A stretch of DNA of 64,000 bases from Meiothermus cerbereus DSM 11376 (GTDB taxonomy: Bacteria > Deinococcota > Deinococci > Deinococcales > Thermaceae), in assembly GCF_000620065.1 (NCBI RefSeq), contig NZ_JHVI01000020.1, positions 17,036 through 81,035 of the forward strand, written 5' to 3'. The notes under the pieces were generated by a model, which had not been told where the DNA came from, did no database searches, and saw only the letters and a program-made list of their open reading frames with translations. The position numbers and the translations under genes are program-made. Shown here one piece after another: positions 25,328-64,000 of the stretch; the stretch's first letter is position 1, and each line of letters starts with the position of its first letter.

Positions 25328-25454
25328 ATACCGGATTCAAAAAGATAATCTTCAAATAAAAAGCGCTAAGAGGCTATCTTTTTGAATCCTAGAGCACTCC
25401 CTTCGGTCGGGTTAGTTCGACACCGTTCGGTGACGAACTAACCGAATCTGGTAT
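25328..25454 (+). repeat. Dispersed palindromic repeat, copy 1 (127 bp)
   Basis: Begins ATACCGGATTC and ends GAATCTGGTAT, an 11-bp terminal inverted repeat with one mismatch. Inside are hairpin 1 (GGATTCAAAAAGATA / TATCTTTTTGAATCC) and hairpin 2 (GGTTAGTTCG...CGAACTAACC with a CACCG/CGGTG core; one arm base differs here). The loop of hairpin 1 contains AAGCGCTAAGAGGC, as in copy 5. It fills part of the 339-bp gap between the adenosine kinase and bcp; the rest (25231-25327 and 25455-25533) holds nothing I recognise. Confidence 0.9.
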
Positions 25455-25533
25455 GACTCATCTCGCTGGTTTTGCCAATCTGCCCTGGCGCAACTTGCAT
25501 GGCGCTGGCAAGGGGCTTGCAATATAGACAACA

Positions 25534-25560
25534 TTGACCCGGGGGGCTGTGGGTTATCAT
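25534..25560 (+). promoter_or_regulatory. Candidate promoter of bcp
   Basis: TTGACC (25534-25539) and TATCAT (25555-25560) with a short 15-bp spacer; the -10 ends 9 nt before the bcp ATG and no ribosome binding site is present, so a near-leaderless message is likely. Confidence 0.45.
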
Positions 25561-25569
25561 CCGGCTGCT

Positions 25570-26046
25570 ATGCTTAAAGTTGGCGATATTGCTCCAAACT
25601 TCACCCTACCGGATCAGGAAGGCAAGCTGCACACCCTCGAGGACTACCGGGGTAAGTGGGTGGTGCTTTATTTTTACCCCAAAGATGATACGCCGGGCTG
25701 CACCAAGGAGGCCTGTAATTTTCGTGACGAAAAAGGCCGCCTGGAGGAACTCGGAGCAGTGGTGCTGGGGGTGTCGGCCGACGATGTGAACAGCCACGGG
25801 AGGTTTCACAGCAAGTATGGCCTCAATTTTCCCCTGCTGTCCAACCCCGATAAGGACATGATTCGCGCCTACGGGGCCTGGGGCACCAAGACCATGTACG
25901 GCAAAGAATATGAGGGGGTCTTCCGCTACACCTATCTGATTGACCCCCAGGGCAGGGTGGCCCGGGTGTGGGAGAAGGTTAAGCCCGACGAGCACGCACA
26001 CGAGGTAGCGGAAGCGCTAATCGAGTTACGACAACAAGCGGTATAA
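25570..26046 (+). CDS. bcp: Thiol peroxidase Bcp/PrxQ
   Basis: 158-residue peroxiredoxin of the PrxQ class, reducing hydrogen and organic peroxides with thioredoxin as donor. Peroxidatic Cys44 is in DDTPGCTKEAC and resolving Cys49 is five residues later, the classical atypical 2-Cys layout. GVSADDVNSHGRFHSKYGLNFPLLSNP is the family core. The ATG at 25570 is chosen because the fold begins there (MLKVGDIAPNFTLP); an upstream in-frame codon would start at the -35 box. Confidence 0.93.
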   Translation: MLKVGDIAPNFTLPDQEGKLHTLEDYRGKWVVLYFYPKDDTPGCTKEACNFRDEKGRLEELGAVVLGVSADDVNSHGRFHSKYGLNFPLLSNPDKDMIRAYGAWGTKTMYGKEYEGVFRYTYLIDPQGRVARVWEKVKPDEHAHEVAEALIELRQQAV

Positions 26047-26112
26047 AGCCGTGCCCAGCGCTGGGGCAAATTCGGTAAGCTTATAGAGCCTTGATCTGGG
26101 GCGCCACTACTT

Positions 26113-26799
26113 ATGAACAGCCAGGATAACTTCAAACAACAAGCGGCCCTCGAGGCCGTCAAATATGTGCAGTCGGGTATGGTGGTGGGCCTTGGCACGG
26201 GCTCTACCGCCCGGTATGCGGTGCTGGAGCTGGGCCGCCGTTTGCGCGAGGGCGAGCTTTCGGAGGTGGTGGCTGTGCCCACCTCGGAGGCTACCGCCAT
26301 GCTGGCGCATGACCTGGGGATTCCTCTGGCCGAGTTAGGGCCCCAGGGGGTTGACCTGGCCATAGACGGCGCCGACGAAATTGCCCCCGATCTTTCCCTA
26401 GTTAAAGGCTTGGGGGGAGCCTTGCTGCGCGAAAAAATTGTGGAGGCCTGCGCGCGCCAGTTTATTGTGATTGCCGACCACACCAAGAAAGTGAGCCAGC
26501 TAGGGCGTGGGGTGGTTCCGGTGGAGATTGTCCGCTTTGGCTATCGCGCCACCCTGCATGCGCTGGGGCGAATGGGGCAGCCTACCTTGCGTATGGATGG
26601 CGATGAATTTTTCTATAGCGATGGGGGCAACCTGATTGTGGATGTCAACTTTGGCCCAATTGCCAACCCCGAGCAGCTCGAGGTCGCGCTAAAACGCATC
26701 CCAGGCGTGGTGGAAAGCGGATTATTTGTGGGCCTGGCCAACTTTGCCATTGTGGCAGGCCCCGAGGGGCTGGAGTATCTGGGAACACGCCCCAACTAG
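26113..26799 (+). CDS. rpiA: Ribose-5-phosphate isomerase A
   Basis: 228-residue RpiA, interconverting ribose 5-phosphate and ribulose 5-phosphate in the pentose phosphate pathway. VGLGTGSTARYAV (phosphate loop), AIDGADEIAPDLSLVKGLGGALLREK-type core with the catalytic acidic and lysine residues, and PGVVESGLFVG near the end are all family motifs. It stands between bcp and the metG leader with no tight linkage to either. No clear ribosome binding site precedes the ATG. Confidence 0.95.
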   Translation: MNSQDNFKQQAALEAVKYVQSGMVVGLGTGSTARYAVLELGRRLREGELSEVVAVPTSEATAMLAHDLGIPLAELGPQGVDLAIDGADEIAPDLSLVKGLGGALLREKIVEACARQFIVIADHTKKVSQLGRGVVPVEIVRFGYRATLHALGRMGQPTLRMDGDEFFYSDGGNLIVDVNFGPIANPEQLEVALKRIPGVVESGLFVGLANFAIVAGPEGLEYLGTRPN

Positions 26800-26922
26800 C
26801 CTTGAGTGCCAGACCCTGCTCAAACAGAGCCTTGTTCGGCGCGGGTGCGGCCTTTTCGTGCTCGATGACGAACAGGATGGGTCTGGTATAAAATGCTGGT
26901 TGTGGTTGGGCGCTTTACCCGA

Positions 26923-26946
26923 ATGATGCGAATGCCCCGACGGTAG
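26923..26946 (+). CDS. Putative leader peptide MMRMPRR
   Basis: ATG ATG CGA ATG CCC CGA CGG TAG: three of seven codons are methionine, just upstream of the methionyl-tRNA synthetase gene. There is no strong ribosome binding site. The frame overlaps the left arm of the hairpin that competes with the terminator, so ribosomes on it would favour the terminator, and failure to initiate would favour read-through. Chance occurrence of three ATGs cannot be excluded. Confidence 0.4.
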   Translation: MMRMPRR

Positions 26947-26964
26947 CGGCAAGAAGCTATCGGC

Positions 26965-26989
26965 GGGGCGCGTTGCGCCCCCTTTTTTT
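26965..26989 (+). terminator. Intrinsic terminator in the metG leader
   Basis: GGGGCGC (26965-26971) pairs with GCGCCCC (26975-26981) around a GTT loop and is followed by CTTTTTTT. It lies 166 bp after rpiA but after the candidate metG promoter, so it fits an attenuator better than a simple rpiA terminator. Confidence 0.8.
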
Positions 26990-27027
26990 GCCATAAACCA
27001 GCTTTGAACCAGTTTGAGGAGTTACCC

Positions 27028-63313: not shown

Positions 63314-63339
63314 CTTACATCACGGCATCACATTCTGGC

Positions 63340-63368
63340 TTGACGATAACCTAAGCGAAGCCTACAAT
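63340..63368 (+). promoter_or_regulatory. Promoter of the tRNA-His/tRNA-Leu unit
   Basis: TTGACG (63340-63345), 17 bp, TACAAT (63363-63368), 20 nt before tRNA-His. Confidence 0.75.
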
Positions 63369-63388
63369 ACCTTTTGCTGTTGCGGCGT

Positions 63389-63466
63389 GGTGAGCGTAGC
63401 TCAGCAGGTTAGAGCACCGGTCTGTGGAACCGGGGGTCGTGGGTTCAAGTCCCATCGCTCACCCCA
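63389..63466 (+). tRNA. tRNA-His (anticodon GTG)
   Basis: Acceptor GTGAGCG / CGCTCAC with an extra G at position -1 (63389), discriminator C and encoded CCA. Anticodon stem CCGGT/ACCGG encloses CTGTGGA, giving GTG. The G-1 and C73 are the identity elements of tRNA-His. Confidence 0.97.
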
Positions 63467-63533
63467 AAACCAGGGCAAATGATTGGGGCGCAGAACGTAA
63501 ATTCTGGCCCCCAATCGCAAGCCCTTCTACCGT

Positions 63534-63618
63534 GCGCGGATGGTGGAATTGGTAGACACGCAAGACTTAGGATCTTGTGCCGCAAGGTGTGGGGGTTCAA
63601 GTCCCCCTCCGCGCACCA
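63534..63618 (+). tRNA. tRNA-Leu (anticodon TAG)
   Basis: 85-nt type II tRNA with a long variable arm. Acceptor GCGCGGA / TCCGCGC, A73, encoded CCA; anticodon stem CAAGA/TCTTG with loop CTTAGGA, so TAG. It follows tRNA-His by 67 nt and shares the promoter and terminator. Confidence 0.97.
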
Positions 63619-63624
63619 CATAAC

Positions 63625-63645
63625 CCCGGCTGTGCCGGGTTTTTT
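63625..63645 (+). terminator. Terminator of the tRNA unit
   Basis: CCCGGC / GCCGGG with a TGT loop followed by TTTTTT, 6 nt after the tRNA-Leu CCA. Confidence 0.88.
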
Positions 63646-63661
63646 GTTGGCTCGACCTTGG

Positions 63662-63886
63662 CTATCTAGGGTTCTCGGCTTTTTGAAGTAGGGCCTGCAG
63701 GGCAGCGATGGCGGCTTCCTGGTGGCGCTGTTCCGGTGGGCGTAGCACCAGCGGCTGCGCGGCCAGCGCCAGCCGGATGGGCCAGGCTAATGAGTCGTTT
63801 GGGTTCTTCAGGTAGCGTTTGATCAAATGGATGCTCAGAAAAATGAGTGCGAGCGTGCTCAGAACTCCCTGTAATACCGGATTCAA
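63662..63886 (-). CDS. Small single-pass membrane protein, start uncertain
   Basis: Up to 74 residues: one hydrophobic segment (GVLSTLALIFLSIHLI) followed by a basic turn (KRYLKNPN) and a soluble helical tail (AAIAALQALLQKAENP). The only early start codon in frame is TTG at 63886, which lies inside the terminal repeat of the copy 5 element; no ribosome binding site precedes it. The real start may be a non-standard codon downstream. Unknown family. Confidence 0.45.
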   Translation of the reverse strand: MNPVLQGVLSTLALIFLSIHLIKRYLKNPNDSLAWPIRLALAAQPLVLRPPEQRHQEAAIAALQALLQKAENPR

Positions 63887-64000
63887 AAAGATATTCTTCA
63901 GACAAAAAGCGCTAAGAGGCTATCTTTTTGAATCCTAGAGCACTCCCTTCGGTCGGGTTAGTTCGTCACCGTTCGGTGACGAACTAACCGAATCTGGTAT
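63874..64000 (+). repeat. Dispersed palindromic repeat, copy 5 (127 bp, ends at window edge)
   Basis: Same orientation as copy 1 and nearly identical, including the first-subtype loop AAGCGCTAAGAGGC. The last base of the window is the last base of the element (GAATCTGGTAT). Hairpin 2 is perfect here (GGTTAGTTCGTCACCG / CGGTGACGAACTAACC). It lies at the 5' side of the small membrane protein gene and contributes its first codons. Confidence 0.93.

Follow-up and report, generated by a model that had tools for sequence, protein, structure and literature searches.

Short, gene-less palindromic elements flanked by three-base TNA repeats form a probable transposable family in Meiothermus cerbereus and related Thermaceae

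A stretch of 64,000 bp from Meiothermus cerbereus DSM 11376 (contig NZ_JHVI01000020.1, positions 17,036 to 81,035; the window) contains five copies of a palindromic repeat that an initial annotation, made from the sequence alone, had taken for a non-autonomous mobile element. Analysis of the host genome (G000; 3,034,817 bases [3.03 Mb], draft in 54 contigs) and of related genomes supported the proposed mobility by target duplications, empty sites and identical copies at dispersed places. We regard it as very probable that the repeat is a family of gene-less short transposable elements, i.e., miniature inverted-repeat transposable elements (MITEs), which insert at TNA with a 3-base duplication and for which a DDE transposase acting in trans is predicted. 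According to this model, a 125-bp unit would insert at TNA sites and duplicate three target bases, a DDE-type transposase supplied in trans would cut and join the unit, and copies would multiply in bursts before being lost through decay and internal deletion. A transposase of the DDE type is predicted because the elements combine terminal inverted repeats with a duplication of fixed length; the elements themselves (75–158 bp in G000) are too short for a transposase gene.

Perfect 3-bp direct repeats TNA/TNA were found to flank 75 of the 80 copies in G000 for which both flanks were available. N was the same on both sides in 77 of these 80 copies; when the right flanks were shuffled 5000 times, N matched in 23.5 copies on average and never in more than 36. 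T was present in all 80 and A in 78 copies. The ends shared between copies had been described with an outermost A and T; these ends are present in the five window copies, but since the outer A and T belong to the duplicated TNA target, the mobile unit runs from TACC to GGTA (TACCGGATTC...GAATCTGGTA) and has a length of 125 bp in the 127-bp class. The terminal inverted repeats TACCGGATTC and GAATCTGGTA match at 9 of 10 positions. Read inwards, the two ends differ at one base, G versus A, and exact 11-base ends were detected 85 times in the G form and 91 times in the A form in G000, whereas reversed control patterns were detected 0 times, which excludes chance as their source. Only two A-A pairs were present among 83 end pairs, showing that the G/A difference is the rule; the set of intact copies is itself defined by this difference, but the separate counts of ends show the rule independently. 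The target was also symmetric beyond TNA: with N as position 1 on each side, the 80 copies showed S at -6 in 69, W at -4 in 59 and S at -3 in 60 on the left side, and S at +3 in 63, W at +4 in 66 and S at +6 in 56 on the right side.

The initial annotation held that mobility would be unsupported if homologous positions in related genomes showed no empty sites, and three empty sites were resolved at the junction. Two of these lie in a second dispersed repeat of approximately 110 bp (family B). In the window, a family-B repeat on the minus strand (25260–25496) is interrupted by copy 1 as ...GATGAG TCA-unit-TCA ATGCATACC..., while the uninterrupted paralog at locus L067 reads ...AATGAGTCAATGCATACC..., i.e., it contains the target bases of copy 1 once, base-exact. 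Likewise, the copy at L218 splits family B as ...GGAATGA-unit-TGAGTC..., and the uninterrupted paralog at L008, reading ...GGAATGAGTC..., contains the target bases once and base-exact. The third empty site was found between genomes. A copy in Meiothermus taiwanensis DSM 14542 (G010:C1:75393) is flanked by TAA on both sides, and the equivalent place in G016, which is 92.8% identical to G010 over 36.6 kb, has the same flanks and a single TAG (one target base differs). The gap between the aligned flanks was 134 bases in G010 and 5 in G016, and the difference of 129 corresponds to a 126-bp unit plus 3. Three sites were aligned between these two genomes, of which this one was resolved and two lay in diverged sequence. 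In addition, a nested copy was found at L197, where an older unit is interrupted by a second one bordered by TTA at either end, and three copies (L003, L013, and L208; L013 in the other orientation) were found at the same TAA of a third dispersed repeat (family C). Family C is uninterrupted at L030 and L023, but the target bases differ there, so these are not exact empty sites.

Scripted pairing of the 176 exact ends in G000 placed 166 of them in 83 pairs within 170 bases and left 10 over. Intact copies, defined by exact G and A ends (a C variant being allowed in one copy), numbered 81; the 127-bp class accounts for 50 and the 158-bp class for 28, and the remaining three measure 75, 128, and 152 bp. 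Outside this count are the two pairs with two A-type ends, copies with mutated ends (e.g., L060 and L061), pieces at contig edges, and, where contig C12 ends, one further intact copy of 127 bp. One 127-bp sequence was present in 18 identical copies, a second sequence in 9 and a 158-bp sequence in 7, and 38 distinct sequences were found among the 81 copies. The bases adjoining the 18 identical copies differ from copy to copy, and every one of these copies is bordered by a perfect TNA repeat; further out, some of the flanks have other dispersed repeats in common (e.g., family C at L003 and L013). The presence of 18, 9, and 7 identical copies at different places indicates that the family has been recently amplified. 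Loop subtype, middle module, and hairpin-2 loop were found in several combinations, and the centre of hairpin 2 in both GTTC and its reverse complement GAAC, which suggests sequence exchange between copies and flipping of the palindrome. As the middle 31-bp module is present in other genera and forms of 191–196 bp are present in other genomes, the 158-bp class is probably older and the 127-bp form probably a deletion. Two G000 copies carry loops resembling those of copies in other genomes. The G+C content of the element is 45%, compared to 60% for the window. Of the joined sites, 40 out of 77 lay in an open stretch of at least 150 codons, compared to 93.6% of 2000 random window positions; this shows a bias away from open frames and does not make every copy intergenic.

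All five copies reported in the window were found again, with lengths of 127, 158, 127, 75, and 127 bp. Both orientations occur as reported, copies 2 and 3 (minus strand) being opposite to copies 1, 4, and 5 (plus strand), and the two loop subtypes (copies 1 and 5 versus copies 2 and 3) were as described. Copy 1 (25328–25454, 127 bp; unit 25329–25453), inside the family-B repeat, has a TGA target duplication on both sides. Copy 2 (29731–29888, 158 bp), with the duplication TAA, belongs to the 158-bp class with the 31-bp middle module; this module had been described as an insertion in one copy, but it is not confined to copy 2, as 28 of the 81 counted copies have the same length. Copy 3 (44159–44285, 127 bp) belongs to the 127-bp class with the second loop subtype and is flanked by TTA; on its right starts a family-C repeat (44288–44336, plus strand; 49 bases, 82% alike). 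Copy 4 (53030–53104, 75 bp) is flanked by TCA and TGA. It is a deleted form, as previously proposed, but its parent was probably a longer form and not the 127-bp form, because copy 4 retains GCGGATAACTTCGGTCGGG, a piece otherwise seen only in forms of greater length, intact or decayed (L064, L152, and L272). Copy 5 (63874–64000) belongs to the 127-bp class and has TAA as its left flank. It ends where the assembly contig (C14, 81,035 bases) ends, so that its right flank lies beyond the contig end. The previous description of all copies as intergenic agrees with the lists of open reading frames (ORFs) for copies 1–4; at copy 5, a 74-aa ORF starts inside the element, which is probably an artefact of a wrong start.

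The family extends beyond the window not only within G000: matches were found in 20 of 41 genomes tested, belonging to three genera of one family, which answers the concern that copies might be limited to the window. Within Meiothermus, 16 of 18 genomes (the own genome included) contained matches, as did 2 of 2 genomes in each of two other genera of the same family, one of them Calidithermus (C. chliarophilus), while two more genera of the family (0 of 1 and 0 of 2 genomes) and four other families of the order (0 of 16) gave none. The matches in two of the 20 genomes (L048 and L049) are short fragments (42 and 44 bases) that look decayed. The best match in any other genome was 93% identical, compared to mostly 94–100% for the copies in G000 itself, so each genome seems to hold mostly its own copy population. 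A plasmid of Allomeiothermus silvanus also carries a copy. No match was found in the phage collection; of the 3 records matched in the plasmid collection, one is a chance match of 26 bases in Enterococcus, and viral contigs gave 7 and 1 exact pattern matches, none of which was an element on inspection.

The two internal hairpins, which in copy 5 (plus strand) pair 63879–63893 with 63921–63935 (hairpin 1) and 63956–63970 with 63975–63989 across a four-base loop (hairpin 2), were analyzed in an alignment of the 118–128-bp class, comprising 34 of 53 listed references (one of the 53 being a wrong-strand duplicate) from 15 genomes or records. In the consensus fold, 98.7% of 1186 cells pair and 13 of 35 pairs changed on both sides; pairing dropped to 25–49% when partners were slid by one to three columns. 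None of 500 shuffles reached any of five pairing measures. These counts are not probabilities, however, because the fold was taken from the very alignment that was scored, which works in its favour, and because the aligned sequences are related to one another. The comparison shows that hairpin pairing is kept by compensatory changes. Imperfect cells comprised 4 G-U and 11 A-C (manual count, excluding one pair in which 33 of 34 rows show G-U); G-U thus does not exceed A-C, which gives no preference to RNA pairing of the displayed strand. For copy 5, stable folds are predicted on both strands (z near -8). We infer that the two hairpins are kept palindromic as DNA and not as RNA. Either the arms may be kept alike by arm-to-arm copying, or folding may matter for movement, the transposase possibly needing the hairpins. 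A stronger version, in which the hairpins are part of the transposition machinery and the ends are presented as folded DNA to a transposase making the DDE-like 3-bp duplication, is in our opinion improbable. If it were true, selection on DNA folding across three genera would explain the compensatory changes as well as the fixed G/A difference, and drift or arm-to-arm correction would not be the explanation.

The same stable folds (z approximately -8 for both strands of copy 5) and strong covariation would also fit a conserved functional RNA or a regulatory element, such as a terminator or a processing site, that became dispersed by happenstance. This is very improbable: no Rfam match was obtained at the five window copies (the 3 window matches at gathering score were all tRNA), and in the spacers examined copies were not kept at the same place between species. 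Moreover, the approximately equal folding of both strands and the lack of preference for G-U over A-C suit DNA palindromes better. A role as canonical terminator was dropped, because the hairpins of the window copies are not followed by a run of T. Slightly less probable still is that the repeats are REP/BIME-like or IS200/IS605-like palindromes spread as single-stranded DNA by an HUH transposase (RAYT or TnpA) reading the hairpins. RAYT/TnpA-type HUH enzymes recognise hairpins, and here hairpins lie beside both ends and are kept by compensatory change; however, HUH-type enzymes are not known to make a target duplication, and the presence of one in 75 of 80 copies, together with exact empty sites, largely refutes such a spread. 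The matched terminal inverted repeats and the symmetric target also speak against it. Segmental duplication or gene conversion, to which we give the least credence, would be in line with the mixed loop and module variants, by which copies probably exchange sequence, and with 124 copy pairs having some similar flank, but the similar stretches are approximately 40–130 bp (40 of the 124 pairs) and several are other dispersed repeats, a separate TNA duplication accompanies each of the 18 identical copies, and empty sites require insertion, so it is refuted as the main process.

A number of observations weigh against transposition of a MITE family mobilized in trans. Five of the 80 copies, including copy 4 in the window, have no perfect duplication. 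Homologous spacers with both flanks were recovered for copy 1 in 11 loci (10 genomes; L071 and L159 are from the same genome), copy 2 in 7 loci (6 genomes), copy 3 in 2 and copy 4 in 3 loci, and for copy 5 the left flanks alone were recovered in relatives. No intact element was present at the homologous spacers found, but most spacers of copies 1–4 have diverged so much that an empty site cannot be positioned exactly. In M. taiwanensis, the spacer corresponding to copy 3 contains a decayed relic that is oriented the other way and located elsewhere in the spacer, and possible decayed ends were seen by eye only in the copy-2 spacer of M. hypogaeus (not significant when tested) and the copy-3 spacer of G008. 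We read this pattern of remains as the same spacers having been struck repeatedly, followed by decay; other decayed or intact copies occur elsewhere in the same relatives (L155 and L160).

The search for an autonomous partner weighs on the same side. The initial annotation had proposed to look for a complete, transposase-encoding element that shares these ends, and none was found in anything searched, where the high-copy genomes were not searched exhaustively and G000 is a draft. Of the 10 leftover ends in G000, 2 lie at the edge of a contig, one is paired with a variant end, and reading showed the other 7 to be decayed or one-sided. Between neighbouring complete copies 0.8–2.1 kb apart, other repeats or host genes (ychF, isocitrate/isopropylmalate dehydrogenase, grpE-dnaJ) and no transposase were found: a Pfam scan of 7 ORFs between such copies on contigs C12, C13, and C27 identified none as a transposase, and pieces of other repeats lie between the copies on C52. 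No partner was detected in 15 other genomes searched by pattern, in which 20 stretches with unpaired ends were read and judged by eye to be decayed or chance. PF13340 showed matches in 19 of 27 genomes and PF01609 in 7 of 7, and 30 loci were read for each; in these 60 transposase loci, no pair of ends with at most one mismatch per end enclosed a transposase as its own ends (weaker two-mismatch pairs were also present). The only wide pair around a transposase (L299) was rejected as a parent, being an insertion sequence (IS) inserted in rearranged pieces of the element. A Tourist or PIF-Harbinger-like origin was not supported either, as PF13359 (DDE_Tnp_4) had no match in 25 genomes, 16 of which belong to Meiothermus. 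Plasmid pMtWR-220, of which 250 of 271 kb were covered, contains element copies, and none of its 12 annotated transposase places tested had matching ends.

As IS5-type elements of these bacteria also duplicate TNA, our first guess, with perhaps even chances of being right, is that the missing enzyme is an IS5-group transposase. Elements with a DUF4096/DDE_Tnp_1 transposase were found to have duplicated TAA (L163 and L173), TTA (L182 and L303), and TGA (L299), seen on both sides as in the family described here, and in G000 the end of one such IS touches an element at a shared TAA. We take these TNA-duplicating elements of Thermaceae to be of the IS1031 type. They are approximately 0.9 kb long and their ends, such as GAG(A/G)CTGTC or GAGCCTATCC, are unlike TACC(G/A)GATTC of the element, which is a further point against a known partner; because of this difference, membership of the IS5 family is not claimed. 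Fragments of DUF4096 transposases were also observed on the G000 contigs C2, C6, C29, C33, and C7, several of them at or near contig ends, and probably derive from a multi-copy IS5-type element that broke the assembly.

Among known repeats, ERIC is likewise palindromic and intergenic. It is approximately 127 bp long, but it duplicates TA and not TNA and occurs in different hosts; we take the equal length as coincidence. The MITEs Chunjie, Correia, RUP, and QMITE share with the present family the general anatomy given for prokaryotic MITEs in the accessible text of a review (PMC10969869): they are short, gene-less, AT-rich for their genome, and mostly intergenic, with terminal inverted repeats, target duplications, stable stem-loops, tens of copies, and truncated forms. 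They differ in their hosts, and no parent IS was found here, the comparison being one of descriptions. The words Thermus and Deinococcus have 0 occurrences in that review. In the available part of the report on BrickBuilt and MITEPgRS of Porphyromonas gingivalis (PMC4596501), these MITEs are tied by their ends (GAGAC...) to IS5-family parents and have duplications of variable length, whereas the ends found here match no IS seen. For Thermus insertion sequences, the portion consulted of PMC6352166 lists direct repeats of 0 to 12 bp, of which only those of ISTth1 (IS3 family, 3–4) reach 3 bp; the IS5 entry ISTth7 has 8-bp direct repeats, and "MITE" occurs once, in a program name. The parts seen of a Meiothermus population study (PMC10130571) report insertion sequences and do not mention the family, and those of a Thermus paper (PMC10085754) refer to MITEs of Pseudomonas syringae only. 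No description of the family was found in the literature searched, most subscription journals lying outside the search, and, as far as searched, Meiothermus, Calidithermus, and Allomeiothermus appear to share a MITE family that has not been described before.

The kind of element is thus ordinary, while the evidence of mobility is well preserved, no parent is known and the conservation of the hairpins is unexplained. The family would serve as a marker for strain typing in these thermophiles and marks places where draft assemblies break. With identical copies, exact empty sites, and a known target, it offers a clean system for finding the transposase and for probing the conservation of the hairpins.

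Other repeats were observed near the elements. Besides its window copy, family B was found at L064, L067, L224, L244, and L218. At L064 (G000:C20) it lies inside a decayed MITE copy, and for this reason family B is probably also mobile. Family C (at least 100 bp) was found, in addition to its start beside copy 3, at L002, L003, L013, L023, L030, L067, L208, L238, and L070. At L067, family B is interrupted by a family-C copy that is bordered by ATGA repeats, pointing to a mobile element that duplicates 4 bp. A fourth dispersed repeat, approximately 105 bp long, was present near MITE copies at L008:1628–1800, with 13 similar places in G000 (75–95% alike). Two loci (L152 and L256) concern an IS beside a MITE copy: on the Allomeiothermus silvanus plasmid pMESIL01, an IS annotated as ISMesi2 (IS701 family) adjoins a copy with a damaged end, and a join similar to this junction was found in G009. 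Finally, a 381-aa ORF on the minus strand of the window (22844–23989) has a zinc-ribbon-like C-terminus and resembles, by eye, TnpB of the IS200/IS605 type.

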